A stretch of DNA of 64,000 nt, taken from the NCBI RefSeq assembly GCF_003337555.1, contig NZ_QPJK01000017.1, forward strand, positions 1 to 64,000. The letters run 5' to 3'. Numbering within the stretch: position 1 is the stretch's first letter; each line of letters opens with the position of its first letter. Positions 8,012-17,781 of this stretch are shown piece after piece. The stretch comes from Pseudorhodoferax soli (lineage in GTDB: Bacteria; Pseudomonadota; Gammaproteobacteria; Burkholderiales; Burkholderiaceae_C). A model generated the notes under the pieces. It was not told the DNA's origin. It made no database searches and worked only from the letters and a program-made list of their open reading frames with translations. The position numbers were made by a program, and so were the translations under genes.

Positions 8012-8967
8012 GCACCCTGCCCCCCACTTCCGCCGCAGCGCAGCGCCATGTGCCGGACCGTCCCGTCCTGCCCACATTCAAGCAATGGCTGGCGCTGTGC
8101 AAGCAGGCCGTGCAATCATGGTCCGACGACTACGCGCCCAGCATGGGGGCCGCGCTGTCCTACTACAGCGTGTTCTCGATGGCGCCGCTGCTGCTGATCG
8201 TGATCTCGGTGGCCGGCCTGGTGTTCGGCGAGGAAGCCGCGCGCGGCGAGCTGTTCGGCCAGTTGGCCGGCCTCATGGGCGCGGACGCGGCCAAGACGCT
8301 GGAGACACTGCTGGCCAGCGTGAACAAGCCGGCGCAGGGCATCGTCTCCACGCTGATCGGGTTGGGCGTGCTGCTGATCGGCGCCACCACCGTCTTCGGC
8401 GAGCTGCAGAACGCGCTGGACCGCATCTGGCGCGCGCCCGCACGCAACACCGGCGGCGGCCTGTGGAATCTGCTGCACACGCGGCTGCTCTCCTTCGGCA
8501 TGGTGCTGGGCATCGCCTTCCTGCTGATGGTCTCGCTGGTGCTGGGCGCCGTGGTCTCGGCACTGGGCAAGTGGTGGGGCGATGCCTTCGTCGGCTGGGA
8601 GATCGCGGCCCAGCTCATCAACATCGTGCTGGGCTTCGCGTTGACCACCGGCGTGTTCGCGATGATCTACAAGATCATGCCGCGCGTGCATGTGCGCTGG
8701 TACGACGTGTGGATCGGCGCGGCCGCCACGGCGCTGCTGTTCACGCTGGGCCGCTTCCTGATCGGGCTGTACATCGGCAAGAGCGGCGTGGCCTCCAGCT
8801 TCGGCGCGGCCGGCTCGCTGATCGTGATCTTCGTCTGGGTCTACTACTCGGCCCAGGTGTTCCTGATGGGCGCCGAGTTCACCTGGCTGTACGCCAAGCA
8901 GTACGGCTCGATGCGGCACCTGCCGGGCTCGGCCACGGCGCCCGCGCCCACCACGGTCAACGGTTAG
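8008..8967 (+). CDS. yihY: YihY/virulence factor BrkB family membrane protein
   Basis: 319 residues with six membrane segments and the family core PSMGAALSYYSVFSMAPLLL, GATTVFGELQNALDRIWR and SSFGAAGSLIVIFVWVYYSAQVFLMGAEFTWLYA. The family was once called ribonuclease BN but is an inner-membrane protein of unsettled function. It begins inside the stop of the asmA-like gene. The end overlaps the convergent gene on the other strand: the four bases TTAG at 8964-8967 supply the stop of both. Confidence 0.92.
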   Translation: MSTLPPTSAAAQRHVPDRPVLPTFKQWLALCKQAVQSWSDDYAPSMGAALSYYSVFSMAPLLLIVISVAGLVFGEEAARGELFGQLAGLMGADAAKTLETLLASVNKPAQGIVSTLIGLGVLLIGATTVFGELQNALDRIWRAPARNTGGGLWNLLHTRLLSFGMVLGIAFLLMVSLVLGAVVSALGKWWGDAFVGWEIAAQLINIVLGFALTTGVFAMIYKIMPRVHVRWYDVWIGAAATALLFTLGRFLIGLYIGKSGVASSFGAAGSLIVIFVWVYYSAQVFLMGAEFTWLYAKQYGSMRHLPGSATAPAPTTVNG

Positions 8968-9698
8968 GCCGCCGGCGCCACGGCGGCGCCCTGGATGCCG
9001 TGGCGGCGCAAGGCCTCCGCCACGAAGCCACTGCCCTTCATGTCCTCCACGAAGGCCGCCAACACGGCCTGGGCCGCAGCACCGCGGCCGGCGGGCAGCC
9101 CCATGGCCTGCTGGATCACCATGAAGCAGCCCGGCAGCAGGCGCAGGCCGCCCAGCCGCGCGGCGTCGGCCTCGAGTTGCTGCTTCACGCCGGCCGCCAC
9201 ATCCGCGGGCTCGTCCAGGAAGCTCTGCACCACGGCCGGTGAACTCGGCGCGCGCAGGATCGTGGCGGCCTTGAGTTCCCGCGTGAGGAACAGGTCGTAC
9301 GCGCTGCCCTTGCCGACCATGACGCTGCGGCCCGCGGCATCGACCTCGGCATTGCCCTGCAGCGGCGAGTCCGCGCGCACCAGGTAGCAGCCTTCGATCA
9401 GCACATAGGGCGCGGTGAAGCGGATGCCCTCGCCGCGCAGCGGGTCGATCGCGAAGAAGCCGATGTCGGCCTGCTCGGCCTTCACGGCGTCGACCGACTT
9501 TCCGGCGGTGTCGAACACCACCAGATCGAGCGGCACGCCCAGCCGCTCGGCGAATGCCCGCGCCAGGTCGACCGAGACGCCCTGGGCCTGGCCCGCGGCG
9601 TCGCGGCCGGCCAGTATCGGGTTCCCCAGGTTGATGGAGGCGCGCAGGCGGCCCGTGGGGGCGAAGGCCAGGGCGAGGTCGGCGGCGATGCGGGTCAT
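8964..9698 (-). CDS. Substrate-binding (SBP family 3) domain protein without signal peptide
   Basis: 244 residues. The fold signature of family 3 solute-binding proteins is clear: LRASINLGNPILAGRDAAGQ, GVSVDLARAFAERLGVPLDL, ADIGFFAIDPLRGEGIRFTAPYVLIEG, and a second-lobe GKGSAYDLFLTRELKAA. The start at 9698 (MTRIAADLALAFAP) has AAAGGA about eight bases upstream. No hydrophobic signal sequence precedes the domain, so it may act in the cytoplasm, either as a sensor or as an enzyme-like relative. It stands alone, convergent with yihY and next to the LacI gene, and may belong functionally with the ABC/RLP operon, which already encodes its own secreted binding protein. Confidence 0.78.
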   Translation of the reverse strand: MTRIAADLALAFAPTGRLRASINLGNPILAGRDAAGQAQGVSVDLARAFAERLGVPLDLVVFDTAGKSVDAVKAEQADIGFFAIDPLRGEGIRFTAPYVLIEGCYLVRADSPLQGNAEVDAAGRSVMVGKGSAYDLFLTRELKAATILRAPSSPAVVQSFLDEPADVAAGVKQQLEADAARLGGLRLLPGCFMVIQQAMGLPAGRGAAAQAVLAAFVEDMKGSGFVAEALRRHGIQGAAVAPAA

Positions 9699-9822
9699 GC
9701 GGAGGGTCCTTTGCGGTGGGTCAGACGCAAGCATGCCAGCAAGCCGGCCGGGCGGTGCCTGTGCGGTGCCGGCCGCCCCGCAGCGCGGGCCCTGGGCGGC
9801 CTGGTACGCCCGCCCGGCGCAG

Positions 9823-10869
9823 CTAGGGCAGGTTCTCGCGGAAGATCACCTGGCTGCGCGTGCTCTCCACGCCCGCCAGGGCGGGCCGGCCTTCGCGCAC
9901 GTTGACGAAGATGCGCACCGCGCTGGCCAGCGTGGCCTGCGGGCTCTGCGTGATCACCGCGTCCACGCTGCCATCGATCAGCAGCGCGCGCGTGTCGGGC
10001 GTGAGGCCGTGGCCGACGAACACCACCTTCTGGTCGCGCCCGGCCTGCTTCAGCGCGCGCGCCACCCCGTCGGACGCACCGCCGATGTTGTAGATGCCGG
10101 CGAGAAGCGGGTGCTGCTCCAGCAGCGAGCAGGTCTGCGCATGGTTCTGCTCCGAGTCGTCATGCCCCTCGCGCAGGCCCACCACCTCGAGCTGGCCGAA
10201 CATCTCGGCCAGCACGTGCAGGAAGCCGGCCTCGCGCTCCTCGTGCGCGCGGTAGCTGCGGCTGCCGGCGATCAGCGCCACCTTGGCCGGGCGCTGCCCG
10301 ATGAAGCGGCCGATCAGGTAGCCGGCGGTGCGGCCCGCGGCGCGGTTGTCCAGCCCCAGGTAGGCTGTGCGCGACGCATTCGACAAATCCGAGATCAGCG
10401 TGACCACGGGCACGCCGGCCGCCACCAGCTCGTGCACGGCCTCGCGCACGGCCGGGTGCTCCAGCGCCATCAGCGCCACGCCATCGGCGCGCCGGCCGTG
10501 GCGGCGCAGCGCATCGGCCAGCGCCAGCGGGTTGAAGCTCTCGATGAACTCGCTGCGGCAGCGCACGTTGTAGGGCGTCCAGTGTTCCTGCGAGTAGCCC
10601 ACCATGTCGCCCAGCATGCGGATGAAGCGGTTGTTGCCGGCCGGCAGCAGGAAGCTCAGCTGCATGGGCCGCGACGCGGCCACCGCGCTGGCCTGCACCG
10701 CGGGCAGCACCGCATGGCCGAGCTCTGCCGCCGCGCGCAGCACGCGCTGCTGGGTGGCGGCGCGCACGCCCGCGCGCTGGTTCAGCACCCGGTCCACCGT
10801 GGCCGTGGACACCCCGGCCAGGCGCGCGATGTCCGGAATGCGGGGGGCCTTGGCTTCGCTGGATTCCAT
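9823..10869 (-). CDS. LacI family transcriptional regulator
   Basis: 348 residues. An N-terminal helix-turn-helix (PRIPDIARLAGVSTATVDRVLNQRAGV) and hinge helix (RAAAELGHAV) are followed by a periplasmic-binding-protein-like effector domain related to ribose-type regulators (LSFLLPAGNNRFIRMLGDMV; DGVALMALEHPAVREAVHEL; VGHGLTPDTRALLIDGSVDAVITQSP). ATG 10869 is preferred over a TTG at 10878. It is divergent from the ABC/RLP operon (first gene at 10999) with 129 bases between, so it very likely represses that operon and itself, with a sugar or sugar-acid as inducer. Near-identical repeats in the intergenic region are candidate operators. Confidence 0.92.
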   Translation of the reverse strand: MESSEAKAPRIPDIARLAGVSTATVDRVLNQRAGVRAATQQRVLRAAAELGHAVLPAVQASAVAASRPMQLSFLLPAGNNRFIRMLGDMVGYSQEHWTPYNVRCRSEFIESFNPLALADALRRHGRRADGVALMALEHPAVREAVHELVAAGVPVVTLISDLSNASRTAYLGLDNRAAGRTAGYLIGRFIGQRPAKVALIAGSRSYRAHEEREAGFLHVLAEMFGQLEVVGLREGHDDSEQNHAQTCSLLEQHPLLAGIYNIGGASDGVARALKQAGRDQKVVFVGHGLTPDTRALLIDGSVDAVITQSPQATLASAVRIFVNVREGRPALAGVESTRSQVIFRENLP

Positions 10870-10958
10870 CAAATTCAATCAAGTTCTTGGCTGGCCTTCT
10901 GAGGCATCAATCGATACTATCACTCGCCATTTGTGCCTCAAAGCATCAAATTCCATCA
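10867..10958. repeat. Pair of near-identical 15-base direct repeats, candidate operators
   Basis: CATCAAATTCAATCA at 10867-10881 and CATCAAATTCCATCA at 10944-10958 match at 14 of 15 positions in the same orientation; a shorter relative, CATCAATCGAT, starts at 10905. The first copy covers the LacI start codon and the second lies 41 bases before the first permease start. Repeats placed like this between a LacI regulator and its divergent operon are plausible binding sites, although LacI sites are more often palindromes. Confidence 0.4.
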
Positions 10959-10998
10959 GACCACAGAGCCGCAACGAGCGGCCAATACCGGAGACAGG

Positions 10999-11688
10999 GT
11001 GGGCTACGAATTCGACTTCGCCGCAATGCTCCAGGCCTGGCCGCAGTTCCTGGCCGGGGCCTGGCTGACCGTGCAGCTGTCACTGCCCGCCACCGTGGTC
11101 GGCTTCATGCTGGGCACGCTGCTGGCCATCGGCCGGCGCGGCCGGCACGCCTGGCTGCGCAGCGCCTGTGGTGCCTATGTGGAGGTGGTCCGCAACACGC
11201 CGCTCCTGGTGCAGGTGTTCCTGGTGTTCTTCGGCCTGGCCAGCCTGGGCTGGAAGGTGCCGGCCTTCGCGGCGGCGCTGGCCGCGCTGGTCCTCAACGT
11301 GGCCGCGTACTCGTCGGAGATCATGCGCGCGGGCATGGACGCCATCCACAAGGGCCAGATCGAGGCGGCGGAATGCCTGGGCCTCACACGCCGGCAGATC
11401 TACTGGCACGTGATCCTGCGGCCGGCCATGGAGAAGGTCTACCCGGCCCTGACCAGCCAGTTCGTGCTGCTGATGCTGGCGACCTCCATCACCTCGCAGA
11501 TCTCGGTGGAGGAACTCACGGCCGCCGCAGCGCGCGTGCAGTCGGAAACCTTCCGGCCGTTCGAGGCCTACATCCTGGTGGCCGTGGCCTACCTGCTGCT
11601 CTCGCTGCTGATGCGCGCCGGGCTGTGGCTGTTCGGTCAGGCGGTGTTCACGCGGCGCCGCAAGCTCGGTGCGGGGGCAGCCCGATGA
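10999..11688 (+). CDS. Polar amino-acid type ABC transporter permease (HisM/GlnP family), first
   Basis: 229 residues, beginning at a GTG with GGAG just upstream; a longer GTG start at 10933 lacks a ribosome-binding site. Four to five membrane segments, with the EAA-loop motif EAAECLGLTRRQIYWHVILRPAM that contacts the ATPase and the family N-terminal signature GAWLTVQLSLPATVVGFMLG and VEVVRNTPLLVQVFL. It forms the channel with the next permease. First gene of the ABC-VOC-RLP-kinase operon under the LacI regulator. The neighbours deal with a sugar acid rather than an amino acid, so the transported compound is probably a small polar carboxylate. Confidence 0.9.
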   Translation: MGYEFDFAAMLQAWPQFLAGAWLTVQLSLPATVVGFMLGTLLAIGRRGRHAWLRSACGAYVEVVRNTPLLVQVFLVFFGLASLGWKVPAFAAALAALVLNVAAYSSEIMRAGMDAIHKGQIEAAECLGLTRRQIYWHVILRPAMEKVYPALTSQFVLLMLATSITSQISVEELTAAAARVQSETFRPFEAYILVAVAYLLLSLLMRAGLWLFGQAVFTRRRKLGAGAAR

Positions 11689-12341
11689 TCGACGGCGGCC
11701 TGCAAGCCATCCACCTGCAGTACCTGGCGTTCGGCGCGCTGTGGACCATCTGCCTGTCGCTGATCGCCTTCGTCGGCGGCAGCATCGCCGGCGGCCTCGT
11801 GGCCCTGGCCCGCATCAGCCCGAACCGCCTGGTGCGCTGGGCGGCCATCGCCTGGATCCAGCTGATCCAGGGCACGCCGCTGCTGGTGGTGCTGTTCCTC
11901 AGCTACTTCGGCCTGTCGATCGCCGGGCTGGAACTGCCCGCGCTGGTGGCCGCCGGCATCGCCATGGTGGTCTACGTCAGCGCCTACCTGGGCGAGATCT
12001 GGCGCGGCTGCATCGAGGCCGTGCCGCGCACGCAGTGGGAGGCGGCCGAGTGCCTGGCCATGTCGCGCACGCAGCGCATGCGGCTCGTCATCCTGCCGCA
12101 GGCGGTGCGCATCGCCACACCGCCCACCGTGGGCTTCATGGTGCAGATCGTCAAGAACACCTCGCTCGCATCCATCGTCGGCTTCGTCGAACTGGTGCGC
12201 TCGGGCCAGCTCATCAACAACCCCATCTTCCAGCCGTTCCAGGTCTACCTGCTGATCGCGGCCTTCTACTTCGCGCTGTGCTATCCGCTCTCGGTGTGGA
12301 GCCGGCGGCTGGAGCGGCGTTTGCTGGTGGGCAAGGCATGA
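11685..12341 (+). CDS. Polar amino-acid type ABC transporter permease, second
   Basis: 218 residues, overlapping the first permease by four bases (ATGA). It shares the family features: GALWTICLSLIAFVGGSIAGG, LIQGTPLLVVLFLSYFG, and the ATPase-coupling loop EAAECLAMSRTQRMRLVILPQA. It is expected to pair with the first permease as a heterodimeric channel. It is followed by the palindromic repeat element at 12373-12595, which separates it from the ATPase gene. Confidence 0.9.
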   Translation: MIDGGLQAIHLQYLAFGALWTICLSLIAFVGGSIAGGLVALARISPNRLVRWAAIAWIQLIQGTPLLVVLFLSYFGLSIAGLELPALVAAGIAMVVYVSAYLGEIWRGCIEAVPRTQWEAAECLAMSRTQRMRLVILPQAVRIATPPTVGFMVQIVKNTSLASIVGFVELVRSGQLINNPIFQPFQVYLLIAAFYFALCYPLSVWSRRLERRLLVGKA

Positions 12342-12372
12342 GAAACGTTGTTTCCCTCGAACAGCACCGGAC

Positions 12373-12595
12373 CACGCCGACGGCGTGCCCTGCTCCGCGA
12401 ATGTCCCCCGCCTTCGGCTCCTCCTTTATTTCGCTGCGCAGGACACGCCATCGACGCGATCCCTCCGCGCCACGATCGACCGCGTCGTGCGACGCGGCGT
12501 GCCTTGGGTCGAGGGCAGCGGGTGGCCCCTGCAGCGAAACAAAGGAGGAGGCCGCCAGGCCGGGGGACGTTCGCGGAAGGGGCCACCCGGTGGCC
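12373..12595. repeat. Composite inverted repeat (REP/MITE-like) inside the ABC operon
   Basis: Two diverged copies of one unit lie head to head. The left copy starts with the palindrome CACGCC-GAC-GGCGTG (12373-12387), then GCGAATGTCCCCCGCC and CTCCTCCTTTATTTCGCTGC. The right copy, read on the minus strand, starts with GGCCACC-C-GGTGGCC (12581-12595), then GCGAACGTCCCCCGG and CTCCTCCTTTGTTTCGCTGC. At the centre is a perfect 8-base hairpin, CCGCGTCG-TG-CGACGCGG (12480-12497). The arrangement could fold into one long stem in the mRNA. No protein is supported here: frames on both strands are low-complexity and in-frame only by high GC. Confidence 0.75.
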
Positions 12596-12627
12596 TCGGC
12601 CCACGCGCCACACCAGCACCGGAAACC

Positions 12628-13356
12628 ATGAACCCCATCGTCGAACTCCAGGACGTGCACAAGCGCTTCGGCAGCAATGCCGTGCTCCAGGGCGTGTCCT
12701 TCGCCATTCCCAAGGGCCAGGTCGTGGCCATCATCGGCCAAAGCGGCTCGGGCAAGAGCACGGCGCTGCGCTGCATCGACCGGCTGGAAACCATCGACAG
12801 CGGCCGCATCACGGTCTGCGGCCATGCGGTGCACGACCCGGCGCTGGACATCCGTGCGCTGCGCAAGGACGTGGGCATCGTCTTCCAGAGCTACAACCTG
12901 TTCCCGCACCTGACGGTGGAGCAGAACATCACGCTCGCCCCCAAGGCCGTCAAGGGCCTGGGCGCGGCCGCCGCGCGCGCCATCGCCGAGCGCACGCTGC
13001 GCCAGGTCGGCCTGCTCGAGAAGGCCCAGGCCTATCCCGAGCAGCTGTCCGGCGGCCAGCAGCAGCGCGTGGCCATCGCGCGCTCGCTGGCCATGGAGCC
13101 GCAGGTGATGCTGTTCGACGAGGTCACCTCGGCGCTGGACCCGCAGCTGACCGGCGAGGTGCTGCGCGTGATCGAGCAGCTGGCCGAAGGCGGCATGACC
13201 ATGGTGCTGGTCACGCACGAGATGGAGTTCGCCGCGCGCGTGGCCGACACCGTGATCTACATGCACGCCGGCCGCGTCTGGGAGACCGGCAGCGGCGCCA
13301 TGCTGAAAGACCCGCAGACGCCCGAGCTGCGCGCCTTCCTGTCCCACGGGCTATGA
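12628..13356 (+). CDS. Polar amino-acid type ABC transporter ATP-binding protein
   Basis: 242 residues. Walker A GQSGSGKST (37-45), Q-loop FQSYNLFPHLT, ABC signature LSGGQQQRVAIARSLAMEP (140-158), Walker B MLFDE (161-165) and H-loop LVTHEMEF are all present. The ATG at 12628 matches the usual family start (NPIVELQDVHKRFG); the upstream frame through the repeat is not coding. It powers the two upstream permeases. Confidence 0.93.
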   Translation: MNPIVELQDVHKRFGSNAVLQGVSFAIPKGQVVAIIGQSGSGKSTALRCIDRLETIDSGRITVCGHAVHDPALDIRALRKDVGIVFQSYNLFPHLTVEQNITLAPKAVKGLGAAAARAIAERTLRQVGLLEKAQAYPEQLSGGQQQRVAIARSLAMEPQVMLFDEVTSALDPQLTGEVLRVIEQLAEGGMTMVLVTHEMEFAARVADTVIYMHAGRVWETGSGAMLKDPQTPELRAFLSHGL

Positions 13357-13375
13357 CAGTTTTCAAGGAGACCCC

Positions 13376-14158
13376 ATGCAACTCTCTCGCATTGTTCTGG
13401 CCGCCGCCATCGGCGCGCTGAGCCTGCCGGCGCTGGCCGACCTGGCCGAAATCAAGGCCGCCGGCAAGCTGCGCGTCGGCATCGATTTCGGCGCGCCGTT
13501 CTACGGCTTCGTGGACGACAAGATGCAGCCCACGGGTTCGGATGTGGACGCCGCGCGGCTGCTGGCCAAGGACCTCGGCATCCCGCTGGAGATCGTCAAC
13601 ACGACGAACTCGGCGCGCATTCCCAACCTGCTGTCGAACAAGGTCGACCTGGTGATCTCCTCGCTGTCGATCACGCCCGAGCGCCAGAAGGCGGTGGACT
13701 TCTCCATCCCCTACGGCGCGATCCAGGCGGCCGTGGGCGCGCCCAAGAGCTTGAAGCTGGCCAACATCGACGACCTGGCCGGCAAGACCGTGGCCGTCAC
13801 GCGCGGCGGCCCGCAGGACAAGATCGTCACCGAACGCGCGCCGCAGGCCAAGGTCGTGCGCTTCGACGACGAGGCCGCCTCCATCACGGCGGCGGCCACC
13901 GGCCAGGCCGACATCGTGGCCATCACGCCGCCCATCATCATGGCGATCGCCAAGCGCAACCCGGCGCGCGAGTTCGAGGTCAAGTTCGTGCTGCAGTCCT
14001 ACCAGCTGGGCATGGCCATGCGCAAGAACCAGCCTGAGCTCATGAACGCCGTGAACGGCTGGATCAAGACCAACCTGGCCAACGGCAAGCTCAACGAGAT
14101 CCACCTCAAGTACGCCGGCGTGGCCATCCCCGACGACATCGTCGCCGGCGCGAAATAA
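13376..14158 (+). CDS. ABC transporter periplasmic substrate-binding protein (SBP family 3)
   Basis: 260 residues with AAGGAG five bases before the ATG. A signal peptide (MQLSRIVLAAAIGALSLPALA) precedes a family 3 binding fold: LAEIKAAGKLRVGIDFGAPFYGFVDD, GSDVDAARLLAKDLGI, LVISSLSITPERQKAVDFSIPYG, and GKTVAVTRGGPQDK. The Arg in the SITPERQKAVDFS motif normally binds the alpha-carboxylate of an amino acid, so the ligand should carry a carboxylate. It delivers the ligand to the permeases encoded just upstream. Confidence 0.92.
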   Translation: MQLSRIVLAAAIGALSLPALADLAEIKAAGKLRVGIDFGAPFYGFVDDKMQPTGSDVDAARLLAKDLGIPLEIVNTTNSARIPNLLSNKVDLVISSLSITPERQKAVDFSIPYGAIQAAVGAPKSLKLANIDDLAGKTVAVTRGGPQDKIVTERAPQAKVVRFDDEAASITAAATGQADIVAITPPIIMAIAKRNPAREFEVKFVLQSYQLGMAMRKNQPELMNAVNGWIKTNLANGKLNEIHLKYAGVAIPDDIVAGAK

Positions 14159-14172
14159 GAAGGACGACAGAC

Positions 14173-14715
14173 ATGAGCCGTCATTTCGGTGCCATCCGCC
14201 AGCTGGGCTACGTGGTCCACGACATCGAGGCCGCCATGGACTACTGGAGCCGCACGCTGGGCGTGGGGCCCTGGTTCTACAACCCCCGGGTGCCCATCGT
14301 GAACTACCGCTACCGCGGCGAAGGCCACCAGCCGCACAACTCGGTGGCGTTGGCGAACTCGGGCTACGTGCAGGTCGAACTGATCCAGACCCGCAACGAC
14401 GTGCCCTCGATGTACCGCGACTTCCTGCAGGCCGGCCGCACCGGGCTGCAGCACGTGGCCTACTGGACCAGCGACTACGACGCCGATCTGGCGCGGCTCA
14501 CGGCCGAGGGCTTCAAGCCGGTCATGAGCGGCGAGGTGGGCGAGCGCGGGCGCTTCGTCTACTTCGACACCGAGTACCACCCGGGCACGGTGATCGAGCT
14601 GTCCGAGGTCGCCGGCCCCAAGGGCAGGATGTTCGACATGATCCGCGCAGCGTCCGAGACCTGGGACGGCAAGACCGACCGGGTGCGGCCGTTCCCCGAT
14701 CTGAGCACCCTGTGA
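14173..14715 (+). CDS. VOC (glyoxalase/dioxygenase) superfamily protein
   Basis: 180 residues. Two babab half-modules of the vicinal-oxygen-chelate fold are visible: IRQLGYVVHDIEAAMDYWSRTLGVGPWF and LQHVAYWTSDYDADLARLTAEGFKPV, followed by FVYFDTEYHPGTVIELSEV. His in VALANSGYVQVELIQ/LQHVAYW and Glu in VIELSE are the likely metal ligands. VOC enzymes catalyse isomerisation, epimerisation, lyase or dioxygenase reactions on metal-chelated oxygen groups. Its place between a sugar-acid transporter and an RLP suggests an isomerase or epimerase step in that pathway; the exact reaction is unknown. Its stop overlaps the RLP start (TGATG). Confidence 0.85.
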   Translation: MSRHFGAIRQLGYVVHDIEAAMDYWSRTLGVGPWFYNPRVPIVNYRYRGEGHQPHNSVALANSGYVQVELIQTRNDVPSMYRDFLQAGRTGLQHVAYWTSDYDADLARLTAEGFKPVMSGEVGERGRFVYFDTEYHPGTVIELSEVAGPKGRMFDMIRAASETWDGKTDRVRPFPDLSTL

Positions 14716-15986
14716 TGACGGCACCGGACCGCATCCACGCCAGCTACCTGATCGAGACGCCGCTGGACCCGGCGGCCGTGGCCGAGGTCATGGCCGGCGA
14801 ACAGTCCTGCGGCACCTTCAAGCGCGTGGAAGGCGAGACCGACGCACTGCGTGCGCGCGCCCGCGCCACGGTGGAAGGCGTCGAGCCGCTGGACAGCGCC
14901 GCGGCGCCGAGCCTGCCCAACGCGCGGCTCAAGCGCCAGCAGGTGCCCGGCCCCTGGCGGCGGGCGCGTGTGCGGCTGTCCTTTCCCGTGGCCAACATCG
15001 GCGCCAACCTGCCCACGCTGGCAGCCACCGTGGCCGGCAACCTGTACGACCTGGGCGAGAGCACCGGCATGCGGCTCGAGACGCTGCAGGTGCCCGCGGG
15101 CTACCGCCGCCGTTTCGACCTGCCGCGCCTGGGCATCGCCGGCACGCGCGCCGCCACCGGCGTGGCACAGGGCGCGCTGGTCGGCACCATCATCAAGCCC
15201 AACGTGGGCTTCTCCAGCGTGCAGACGGCCGAGCTGGTGGGCCGGCTGTGCGCGGCTGGCGTGGACTTCATCAAGGACGACGAGGTCTGCGCCGACCCCG
15301 ACCACGCGCCGCTGGCCGAGCGCGTGCCGGCCGTGATGGCCGTGGTCCGCGCCCACCAGCAGCGCACCGGCAAGCTGGTGATGGTGGCCTTCAACATCAC
15401 CGACGAGGTGGACGCCATGCGCCGCCACGCCGACCTGGTCCAGCGCGAAGGCGGCAGCTGCGTGATGGCCAGCCTGAACTGGTGCGGCTTCTCCGCCATC
15501 CAGGCCCTGCGCCGCCACACGCCGCTGGCGCTGCACGGCCACCGCAACGGCTTCGGCGCGCTGTCGCGCCACCCGCTGCTGGGCATCTCGTTCCAGGCCT
15601 ACCAGACGCTGTGGCGCCTGGCCGGCGTGGACCACATGCATGTGCACGGCCTGGCCGGCAAGTTCGCGCAGGCCGACGCTGAAGTCATCGGCTCGGCCCA
15701 CGATTGCTACACGCCGCTGGCCGAAGGGCTGGACGACGCCGTGATGCCGGCCTTCTCGTCCGGCCAATGGGCCGGCACCGTGCCGCCGACCTGGGCCGCC
15801 ATCGGCCGCGACGACCTGCTCTTCATGTCCGGCGGCGGCATCCTCGCGCACCCGGGCGGCCCGGCTGCCGGCGTGGCCAGCATCCGCCAGGCCTGGGCGG
15901 CCGTGCGCACGGGCCAGCCGCTGGCCGAGGCCGCGCGCCAGGCGCCCGAGCTCGCGCAGGCGCTGGCCTTCTTCGGCACGCCGTGA
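14715..15986 (+). CDS. RuBisCO-like protein (form IV RLP, RuBisCO large-chain superfamily)
   Basis: 423 residues from ATG 14715, which overlaps the VOC stop; a GTG three bases earlier is equivalent. The N-terminal domain (1-125) and TIM barrel are both present. Active-site positions of RuBisCO are largely kept: K161 in TIIKPNVGFS (Lys175), the carbamate loop DFIKDDE with K187, D189 and E190 (Lys201/Asp203/Glu204), HGHRNG with H276/R277 (His294/Arg295), GK316 (Lys334, loop 6) and the phosphate-binding SGGG 372-375. The second Lys of the KPK motif is Asn here, so carboxylation of RuBP is not expected. RLPs are known as enolases, isomerases and transcarboxylase/hydrolases. Pairing with a DUF1537 kinase recalls OiaX of 3-oxo-isoapionate catabolism. 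Confidence 0.92.
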   Translation: MTAPDRIHASYLIETPLDPAAVAEVMAGEQSCGTFKRVEGETDALRARARATVEGVEPLDSAAAPSLPNARLKRQQVPGPWRRARVRLSFPVANIGANLPTLAATVAGNLYDLGESTGMRLETLQVPAGYRRRFDLPRLGIAGTRAATGVAQGALVGTIIKPNVGFSSVQTAELVGRLCAAGVDFIKDDEVCADPDHAPLAERVPAVMAVVRAHQQRTGKLVMVAFNITDEVDAMRRHADLVQREGGSCVMASLNWCGFSAIQALRRHTPLALHGHRNGFGALSRHPLLGISFQAYQTLWRLAGVDHMHVHGLAGKFAQADAEVIGSAHDCYTPLAEGLDDAVMPAFSSGQWAGTVPPTWAAIGRDDLLFMSGGGILAHPGGPAAGVASIRQAWAAVRTGQPLAEAARQAPELAQALAFFGTP

Positions 15987-17275
15987 GCCCTGCGCTGCTC
16001 TGGTACGGCGACGACTTCACCGGCGCCACCGACACGCTGGGCACGGCCGCGCGGGCCGGCCTGCGGGCGCTGCTGTTCCTGCGCCCGCCCAGCGGTGCGC
16101 AGCTGCGGGCCGCCGGCCCGCTGGACTGCGTGGGCCTGGCCGGCTCGGCGCGCTCCATGGCGCCCGACGCGATGCGGGCCGAGCTCGCGCCCGTGGTGCC
16201 GCTGTTCCGGCGCCTGGGCGCGCGCGTGCTGCACTACAAGCTGTGCTCGACCTTCGACAGCGCGCCGCAGGTGGGCAGCATCGGCGTGGCGCTGCAGACC
16301 CTGCGCGCGGCGCTGCCGCCGGGCACGCGCACCGCCATCGTCGGCGGCCAGCCCGACCTGGGCCGCCATTGCCTGTTCGGCAACCTGTTCGCGCGGGCCG
16401 GCAGCGCCGGCGAGGTGCACCGCATCGACCGGCACCCGACCATGGCGCACCATCCGGTCACGCCCATGGCCGAGGCCGACCTGCGCCTGCACCTGGCGCT
16501 GCAGGGCCTGGAGCGGCTCGCGCTGCTGCCCTGGCCCGCGCTGCGCGCCGCCGACCCCTGGGAGCACTGGCAGCGGCTGGCCGACGGTGCGCCGGACGGC
16601 GTGCTGTTCGACGTGGCCGACAACGCCGACCTGACCCGCATCGGCCCGCTGCTGTGGCGCGAGGCGCAGCGCGCACCGCTGCTGGTGGCCGGCGCCAGCG
16701 GCGTGGTGCAGGCATTGGCGCCGGCCATCGCCACCGCGGCGCTGGCGCCATCGCCCGCCGTGGCTCCGGCGCGGGGGCCGGTGTTCGTGCTGGCCGGCAG
16801 CCTCTCGCCGGTCACGGCCGAACAGGTGCAGGCCGCGCACTCCTACGAGAAGCTCTGGCTGGACGCGCCCGCGCTGGCGAGCGAAGCCGCCTACCGCGCG
16901 CAGGCCGCGCAGCGCATCGCGGCGCTGCTGCGCCAGGGCCGCCATGTGCTGGCCTGCACGGTGGCGCCGCAGCAGTCCGGCCCGCAGCCGCTCGATGCAC
17001 GCGCGCTCGCGCTGGCCGGCGGCGCCCTGCTGGCCCAGGTGCTGGCGGCGCAGCCGCTGGCACGCGTGGGCGTGGCCGGCGGGGACACCTCCAGCCTGGC
17101 GGTGCAGGCGCTGCCCGCCTGGGGACTGTCTTACGCTGGCGCCGTGGCGCCGGGGGTCTCGCTGTGCCGCATGCACAGCGACGACGCCACGCTGCACGGC
17201 AGCGAGATCGCGCTCAAGGGCGGGCAGATGGGCACGCCGGACCTGTTCGAACGGCTGGTGCACGGCAGCGCCTGA
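15983..17275 (+). CDS. Four-carbon acid sugar kinase family protein (DUF1537)
   Basis: 430 residues from a GTG that overlaps the RLP stop (GTGA). The N-terminal substrate domain starts with the family motif WYGDDFTGATDT (residues 7-17) and has GGQPDLGRHCLFGNLF and HPVTPM. The C-terminal nucleotide domain has AGGDTSS (365-371) and KGGQMG (412-417). The family phosphorylates acid sugars such as threonate, erythronate, denatonate and 3-oxo-isoapionate. It is presumed to make the phosphorylated substrate of the adjacent RLP. Last gene of the operon; 23 bases separate it from an unrelated phosphatase gene. Confidence 0.92.
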   Translation: MSPALLWYGDDFTGATDTLGTAARAGLRALLFLRPPSGAQLRAAGPLDCVGLAGSARSMAPDAMRAELAPVVPLFRRLGARVLHYKLCSTFDSAPQVGSIGVALQTLRAALPPGTRTAIVGGQPDLGRHCLFGNLFARAGSAGEVHRIDRHPTMAHHPVTPMAEADLRLHLALQGLERLALLPWPALRAADPWEHWQRLADGAPDGVLFDVADNADLTRIGPLLWREAQRAPLLVAGASGVVQALAPAIATAALAPSPAVAPARGPVFVLAGSLSPVTAEQVQAAHSYEKLWLDAPALASEAAYRAQAAQRIAALLRQGRHVLACTVAPQQSGPQPLDARALALAGGALLAQVLAAQPLARVGVAGGDTSSLAVQALPAWGLSYAGAVAPGVSLCRMHSDDATLHGSEIALKGGQMGTPDLFERLVHGSA

Positions 17276-17298: not shown

Positions 17299-17781
17299 AT
17301 GCCCCCTGCACGTCTCCACAGCGTCCTGTTCATCTGCACCGGCAACATCTGCCGCTCGCCCACGGCCCATGCGCTGCTGGTGCACAAGGCCCGCGCGGCC
17401 GGCCTGCAGCTGGAGGTCGACAGTGCCGCCATCTCCGACGAAGAGCGCGGCAACCCGTTCGACCGCCGCGCCGCGGCCGAACTGAAGCGCCGCGGCGTGC
17501 CGGCCCACGAGCACTGCGCGCGCCAGGTGCGGCGCGAGGACTTCGCGCGCTTCGACTGGATCGTCGGCATGACGCAGGCGCACTGCGCAGCGCTGCGCCG
17601 CCAGGCGCCGGCAGGCGCCCATGCGCAGATCGCCTTGATGCTGGACTTCGCGCCCGGCCATGCAGGCGAGGACGTGCCCGACCCCTGGTACGGCGGCGCG
17701 CAGGACTTCATCCACGCCTTCGACCTGATCGACAGCGGCGTGGACGGCCTGTTGGCCCGGATCAGCCCACCGAGCCCGTGA
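17299..17781 (+). CDS. Low molecular weight protein-tyrosine phosphatase
   Basis: 160 residues. The P-loop CTGNICR (C13 to R19) and the general-acid loop DPW (128-130) are both intact, so the protein should be an active cytoplasmic phosphatase. The length fits the family. The gene follows the DUF1537 kinase at short distance but is probably an independent housekeeping gene. The last 20 bases overlap the end of the convergent SDR gene. Confidence 0.94.
   Translation: MPPARLHSVLFICTGNICRSPTAHALLVHKARAAGLQLEVDSAAISDEERGNPFDRRAAAELKRRGVPAHEHCARQVRREDFARFDWIVGMTQAHCAALRRQAPAGAHAQIALMLDFAPGHAGEDVPDPWYGGAQDFIHAFDLIDSGVDGLLARISPPSP

Follow-up and report, generated by a model that had tools for sequence, protein, structure and literature searches.

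The window analysed here, a stretch of 64,000 nucleotides from contig NZ_QPJK01000017.1 of Pseudorhodoferax soli (host genome, 8.16 Mb), contains seven genes that encode two permeases, an ATPase and a periplasmic binding protein of an ATP-binding cassette (ABC) importer, a protein of the VOC superfamily, a RuBisCO-like protein (RLP) and an acid-sugar kinase, all divergent from a gene for a LacI-family regulator (Table 1). The core of this set, LacI / importer-VOC-RLP-kinase, is with high confidence a conserved cassette, and its arrangement recurs far beyond chance. It represents a real and conserved variant of RLP-based acid-sugar catabolism that is, as far as we could find, undescribed.

The locus in Pseudorhodoferax soli

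The seven genes and their regulator had been named in a first-pass annotation of the window, and all of their domains are confirmed by Pfam. The same annotation described a tightly overlapping operon. The ATGA (11685-11688, permeases 1 and 2), TGATG (14713-14717, VOC and RLP) and GTGA (15983-15986, RLP and kinase) overlaps are real, but the genes for permease 2 and the ATPase are separated by a gap of 286 bp (12342-12627) that holds a dispersed repeat. Alternative in-frame starts are available for the LacI gene (TTG at 10878) and for permease 1 (GTG at 10933), and residue numbers of the RLP are counted below from the GTG at 14712. The closest named relative at the locus is Pseudorhodoferax sp. 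Leaf267, with RLP identity of 91%.

Table 1. Features of the cassette, in window coordinates
Feature	Position	Strand	Basis and remarks
LacI-family regulator	9823..10869	-	Pfam LacI + Peripla_BP_4; divergent from operon; ATG at 10869
Operator-like direct repeat CATCAAATTCAATCA	10867..10881	+	Motif scan; overlaps LacI start codon
Second operator-like direct repeat CATCAAATTCCATCA	10944..10958	+	Motif scan; 77 bp downstream, same orientation
ABC importer permease 1	10999..11688	+	Pfam BPD_transp_1; GTG start, GGAGA upstream
ABC importer permease 2	11685..12341	+	Pfam BPD_transp_1; ATGA overlap with permease 1
Dispersed imperfect-hairpin repeat	12400..12610	.	Genome matches; inverted-repeat arms; splits operon
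ABC importer ATPase	12628..13356	+	Pfam ABC_tran
Periplasmic binding protein SBP_bac_3	13376..14158	+	Pfam; carboxylate Arg kept, Thr replaces amine-binding Asp
VOC-superfamily protein	14173..14715	+	Pfam Glyoxalase_4 (39/39 cassette VOCs); Q10/E69/H94/E142
RuBisCO-like protein, KPN clade	14715..15986	+	Pfam RuBisCO_large; tree; active-site columns; GTG 14712 possible
DUF1537 (SBD_N/NBD_C) acid-sugar kinase, OiaK-like	15983..17275	+	Pfam; NCBIfam scores

Elsewhere in the genome the dispersed repeat is matched at length another 14 times, over 186-210 query bases at 74-79% identity (these are the long ones among 19 matches, with scoring of 40 out of 88 first-look candidates). The sequence of the gap has no match among the other loci compared, save two overlapping records of the same place. 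A solitary SBP_bac_3 gene (8964-9734, minus strand) adjoins the LacI gene, and an apparently unrelated gene for a low molecular weight phosphotyrosine phosphatase (17299-17781) lies directly 3' of the kinase gene.

Conservation, importers and regulation

An alignment of eight RLPs was scanned against the named bacterial and archaeal genomes; at least 593 stretches matched, and 544 of them encode relatives. Neighborhoods were compared at 88 loci chosen by RLP similarity, namely the best 80 of these 544 relatives, the window, and seven plasmid loci. A kinase match lies downstream of the RLP gene at all 88, and a VOC gene precedes the RLP gene at 84, with gaps of at most 306 bp; three of the remaining loci (L027, L082, L084) have contigs that start at the RLP gene, and only at L086 is the VOC gene truly missing. 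LacI is present at 81 loci, and the seven misses consist of five short or cut contigs and two real absences (L086 and L088). The gene order is thus conserved in other genomes, and the refuting case set out in the first-pass annotation, an order kept in no other genome, did not arise; the ABC genes are found at 11 of the 88 loci.

No match to a D-apionate oxidoisomerase (ApnO), which in the ApnO-type D-apionate pathway would appear as a PGDH_C gene beside the RLP/kinase pair, was detected in the flanks of the 88 loci (up to about 9 kb per side, less at contig ends), and the same scan found one at 5 of 9 more distant plasmid RLP loci. A gene for a short-chain dehydrogenase/reductase (SDR), scoring above 200 bits, sits between the LacI and TRAP importer genes at five of the 88 loci (L005, L038, L044, L047, L080) and close by at two more (L079, L083); weaker matches to this very large family were left uncounted. 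There is no lactonase annotated inside the cassette in the seven annotated plasmid loci, and no lactonase search was made elsewhere.

To avoid selection by RLP, we also searched whole genomes with an alignment of the VOC proteins. Matches were found in 9 of 399 genomes of an order sample, in 17 of 398 of a phylum sample at a stricter limit, and in 19 of 265 of a one-genus sample at a still stricter limit (a genus that is presumably Bradyrhizobium-type, judging from its kinship to L064). VOC scores split into two classes, above 300 bits and at or below 230 bits. An RLP is directly adjacent at 31 of 31 upper-class places (8, 5 and 18 by sample), of which at least four (L102, L109, L166, L198) repeat loci among the 88, and at none of the 11 lower-class places examined out of 13 listed (L114-L116, L171-L177, L178; about 1.5 kb per side read for six, about 8 kb for five). 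The neighborhoods of more distant VOC relatives yielded no functional clue. Outside the 31 places, a VOC search of plasmids found LacI, TRAP and VOC genes on a plasmid of Azospirillum thermophilum (L117). Near these genes (L117:1126-8543) lie others for a kinase similar to OiaK (473 bits), for a PdxA-family protein and for a DeoR-type regulator, as well as one annotated as an aldolase.

The importer is the variable part of the cassette. By best match near the RLP gene, it is TRAP type 1 at 56 of the 88 loci, TRAP type 2 at 15 and ABC at 11, including the window, with none found at 6. The ABC label requires four changes on the RLP tree, at least two of them forced by starred branches, so that the importer was swapped more than once around a constant core. 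The ABC importer, taken in the first-pass annotation for part of the identity of the system, is thus a minority variant, with TRAP types serving 71 loci. Nor is import of an amino acid supported: the cassette ABC binding proteins keep the carboxylate-binding Arg, and all 11 have Thr where AncCDT-1 and Thermotoga-type proteins have the Asp that is amine-binding in polar amino acid importers.

The binding protein of TRAP type 1 is nearest to PDB structure 4oan (R. palustris RPB_2686), with 61-62% identity for two members; an AlphaFold model of the binding protein was poor (pLDDT 46.9) and was used just to reach the title of 4oan. The gene of 4oan was located in genome G564, where the match is 100%. 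It is grouped there (L157:6331-11036) with genes for TRAP permeases and for AMP-binding (acyl-CoA-ligase-like) proteins, as are its close relatives in two other genomes (L158, L159). The density in 4oan was reportedly modeled as (S)-2-acetolactate; naming the ligand from 4oan was dropped, as the gene stands with AMP-binding genes and apart from any RLP, and the structure is kept as a lead only. A review counts 2-acetolactate among new TRAP ligands (PMC5812351).

Common to the intergenic regions between LacI and the operon is CATCAAAAACCATCA, in which CATCA is repeated directly at a period of 10 bp. The motif is found with at most three mismatches in 76 of 81 such regions (Markov null mean 1.62, maximum 6), at loci of alpha- and betaproteobacteria; it was derived from the same regions on which it was scored, so this fit is partly circular, and sites independent of motif discovery are the perfect copies in L179 and in L117. 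The direct arrangement occurs 143 times at a gap of 5, whereas other gaps reach no more than 32 and inverted arrangements no more than 25, so that inversion lacks a comparable enrichment. LacI proteins usually bind palindromes, but a palindromic operator was rejected here, as 16 near-palindromes were seen against 9.95 expected and the direct repeat is far stronger. Among 44 neighboring same-strand motif pairs, 17 are spaced by 75-78 bp and 8 by 10 bp. The window alone is weak evidence for the pattern, as 4 of 100 shuffles gave at least two matches with at most two mismatches. When the pattern is fitted to the two sites of the window, the host genome has three sites only at one mismatch or fewer, and a reversed control pattern has none; the third site (contig 6) follows a DEAD-box helicase gene at a distance of about 3 kb and falls within a reading frame that is uncertain. 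The motif marks essentially one operon in the host genome, and these direct repeats are candidate LacI operators.

The RLP, the kinase and the VOC protein

The window RLP receives 412 bits from the NCBIfam model of OiaX, 217 from type III RuBisCO, and 141 and 115 from two models of MtnW, all under the respective cut-offs. The cut-off of the OiaX equivalog (NF042437) is 700, and it fails to separate two RLP clades, because 12 of 12 apionate-type RLPs also fall short of it, with 411-518 bits. MtnW enolase is rejected (115 bits against a cut-off of 514, 141 against 409), so that the other refuting case of the first-pass annotation, an RLP of the MtnW clade, did not arise either. In a tree of 103 rows (two cut rows were dropped, the method was a quick one, and some outgroup rows are long-branched), the cassette RLPs and PDB structure 3nwr form one group of 87 with SH-aLRT support of 100, apart from 14 apionate-type RLPs. 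Structure 3nwr, titled 'A rubisco-like protein' and presumably from Burkholderia fungorum, shares 93% identity with the RLP encoded in the cassette of Paraburkholderia ginsengisoli (L065) and matches the window RLP with 677 bits. Our literature search found no assigned function for this structure and no paper naming 3nwr with related terms.

The metal site of the RuBisCO superfamily (K188, D190, E191 and the loop-6 K317) is retained in 89 of 89 clade members, and the earlier observation that the second Lys of the KPK motif is replaced by Asn in the window (N164) holds for all of them, compared to Ser in 14 of 14 apionate-type RLPs (hence KPN and KPS clades). Carboxylating RuBisCO, which needs both Lys of KPK, is thereby rejected. 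The position aligned with spinach His298 is Tyr or Phe in 88 of 89 members of the KPN clade and Trp in 14 of 14 apionate-type proteins, and the residue preceding the loop-6 Lys is Gly in 89 of 89 and Asn or Ser in 14 of 14, respectively. Position 312 is an imperfect clade marker, because the RLP of L113 combines KPN with an HVNG loop.

The window kinase is closer to OiaK (293 bits) than to 3-oxo-tetronate kinase, OtnK (155 bits against a cut-off of 350), and is under the cut-offs of both. When 85 kinases of one clade and 12 of the other are compared at conservation thresholds of 95% and 90%, they have 52 conserved positions in common and none that is clade-specific; at several positions of the substrate domain, both clades depart from an OtnK and from 5dmh. 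The main clue to the metabolic node comes from the genus of G1055, where an RLP adjoins all 19 VOC genes found. Five of these RLPs belong to the KPN type and 14 to the KPS type, the latter with 70 to 75% identity to the apionate-type RLP of L013. The one swap locus that was read widely, L179, has, in this order, LacI, TRAP, VOC, KPS-type RLP and OiaK-like kinase (551 bits) genes, and has no ApnO-like match. Because the KPS RLP occupies the same slot, the VOC product is probably at or near 3-oxo-isoapionate, the same 3-oxo acid as that of ApnO, and we have moderate confidence that 3-oxo-isoapionate is the metabolic node of the cassette. The link to 3-oxo-isoapionate-type catabolism drawn in the first-pass annotation therefore finds support in the RLP-swap cassettes and the OiaK-like kinase; the scores are below the OiaK and OiaX cut-offs.

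The VOC protein is conserved to the same degree as the RLP. Gln10, Glu69, His94 and Glu142 are invariant in 39 VOC sequences and lie on strands of a structural model (pLDDT 93.2); these are the positions where VOC enzymes hold their metal, and the four residues are presumed ligands. The best fold match of the model is 3gm5, titled putative methylmalonyl-CoA epimerase; solved methylmalonyl-CoA epimerases come next, and hydroxymandelate synthase and 4-hydroxyphenylpyruvate dioxygenases rank lower. Methylmalonyl-CoA epimerase itself (TIGR03081) was rejected, as the score of 24.6 bits is far under the cut-off of 115. Cassette VOCs do not conserve the residue that aligns with Glu43 of the S. coelicolor epimerase, a Glu that is probably catalytic judging from named mutants.

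The same host carries an apionate-type operon on contig 3, which makes the cassette of the window a second system rather than the sole candidate of this host for the apionate route. The order there is ApnO-like gene (PGDH_C), DctP gene, RLP, kinase and NanR-type regulator; the kinase passes the OiaK model (755.9 against 700), and no copy of the operator motif is found in 19.9 kb at this locus. The ApnO label of the PGDH_C gene follows the apiose literature. The protein has no NCBIfam match, and a weak KARI_N match just above the cut-off fits a ketol-acid rearrangement. The VOC gene is single-copy in the host genome (E at most 0.001). That no apionate oxidoisomerase is encoded in the window operon, as noted in the first-pass annotation, is correct, but one is probably encoded elsewhere in the genome. 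A cluster with D-apionate oxidoisomerase, together with growth on D-apiose, is described in PMC11747546.

A possible entry to the 3-oxo-isoapionate branch

Our best reading, which is held tentatively, is that of a self-contained, LacI-regulated catabolic cassette that gives access, independently of ApnO, to the 3-oxo-isoapionate branch in acid-sugar catabolism of the D-apiose type. A carboxylate lacking an alpha-amino group would be imported, by the ABC importer here and by a TRAP importer elsewhere, and the VOC metalloenzyme would convert it, with no net redox change, to 3-oxo-isoapionate or a very close 3-oxo acid. The OiaK-like kinase would then phosphorylate a terminal hydroxyl, and the RLP would decarboxylate the resulting beta-keto acid phosphate, or transcarboxylate and hydrolyse it, to central metabolites. 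ApnO oxidises and rearranges its substrate; the most likely VOC step would be the isomerase half of this reaction, an alpha-ketol (acyloin) rearrangement of 2-oxo-apionate, and the extra SDR at some loci may supply the dehydrogenase half. Our confidence in this VOC chemistry is low to moderate. More doubtful than the entry route as a whole is its specific form, a 'split ApnO', in which the VOC protein would be a metal-dependent ketol-acid isomerase that migrates a carbon group after oxidation by the optional SDR, and would open another route that bypasses ApnO, leading to 3-oxo-isoapionate or to a branched oxo acid that is its sister and feeding an RLP clade of unassigned function. The gene set, its conservation, the separate RLP clade, the swap of RLP and kinase in one genus and the operator motif are plain from sequence, whereas the identity of the substrate, the reaction of the VOC protein, the products of the RLP and the regulation itself are predictions. 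The order of events suggested in the first-pass annotation (import, VOC step, phosphorylation, C-C chemistry by the RLP) fits, and isomerase is a putative assignment for the VOC protein.

The closest known relatives of the cassette are the D-apiose/D-apionate systems (ApnO, OiaK, and an RLP that is OiaX or of the transcarboxylase/hydrolase type), which likewise pair an RLP with a DUF1537 kinase, share the conserved kinase positions, and have an RLP slot that is interchangeable with that of the cassette in one genus. Unlike them, the cassette has a VOC gene in place of an ApnO-like one, and its RLP is KPN rather than KPS; it combines LacI with direct-repeat motifs, while the apionate-type loci inspected have mostly NanR/GntR- or LysR-type regulators. 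The 3-oxo-tetronate pathway, in which the 3-oxo acid kinase OtnK acts before C-C cleavage (OtnC), follows the same kinase-then-cleavage logic. RLPs acting on 3-oxo-isoapionate-4-phosphate are described in PMC6302742. No paper joining an RLP, a VOC gene and a DUF1537 kinase was found in a literature search that left most subscription papers outside.

Several observations weigh against an ApnO-independent entry at 3-oxo-isoapionate. The window kinase is far short of the cut-off of 700 of the OiaK equivalog (NF042436) and at most 40% identical to apionate-type kinases. Two further VOC-clade RLPs and a swap RLP are also below the OiaX cut-off of 700, and the activity of the KPS clade is an assumption here, because no RLP tested from either clade passes it. 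The KPN clade deviates at catalytic-site positions 164, 281, 316 and others, so that its reaction may differ from that of KPS. An ApnO-like gene is present at 7 of 14 apionate-type loci (L008, which is cut, L009, L012, L013, L014, L101, L129). The 14 swap cassettes, all from one genus, may descend from a single event. L086 has the RLP and the kinase without the VOC gene, no RLP stands beside the gene of 4oan, and there is no RLP on the A. thermophilum replicon, whose gene set is possibly another way of handling the same intermediate. We know of no VOC chemistry of the ketol-acid isomerase kind.

We consider it unlikely that the VOC protein, instead of being a skeletal isomerase, works as an epimerase, lyase or dioxygenase in the salvage of a stereoisomer or of another substrate class. 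Its nearest folds are methylmalonyl-CoA epimerases, with hydroxymandelate synthase and 4-hydroxyphenylpyruvate dioxygenases lower in rank; the low epimerase score and the unconserved Glu43-aligned residue speak against it, and, on chemical reasoning, epimerisation by proton transfer is impossible at the quaternary C2 of 3-oxo-isoapionate. About equally improbable is a longer branched acid, such as hamamelonate or a 2-carboxy-3-keto-pentitol derived from 2-carboxy-arabinitol, that would be phosphorylated by the kinase and cleaved by the RLP like the six-carbon intermediate of RuBisCO. Kim et al. (2018) reportedly dealt with an RLP in the D-hamamelose pathway, which like the cassette places an RLP in branched-sugar catabolism. 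In PMC8914248, an RLP oxygenase is reported for this pathway, with its gene surrounded by hamamelose assimilation genes. The KPN clade does carry its own active-site signature, and the SDR variants could form a 3-keto acid. On the other side, the kinase has no clade-specific conserved differences from apionate-type kinases, an apionate-type RLP fills the RLP position of 14 of the 19 cassettes in one genus, and neither hamamelose assimilation genes nor a lactonase are recognised in the annotated plasmid cassettes (a lactonase was sought nowhere else).

Least probable of the alternatives is an ordinary D-apionate pathway that borrows ApnO from elsewhere in the genome, with the VOC protein as an accessory. 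Contig 3 indeed holds an ApnO-like gene, OiaK and a second RLP, but that operon looks complete, has its own NanR-type regulator and lacks the operator motif, and the conservation and the position of the VOC gene do not look like those of an accessory.

Should the tentative reading of an ApnO-independent entry to 3-oxo-isoapionate be true, the two half-reactions of ApnO can fall to separate enzymes, and a branched sugar acid not described so far would be added to the uptake repertoire of plant-associated and marine bacteria. A type of reaction new to the VOC superfamily is a further prediction of this reading. The natural part swaps around one VOC gene involve three importer types and two RLP clades, and the RLP clade with the solved structure 3nwr is placed in a concrete pathway, with a substrate node that can be tested.

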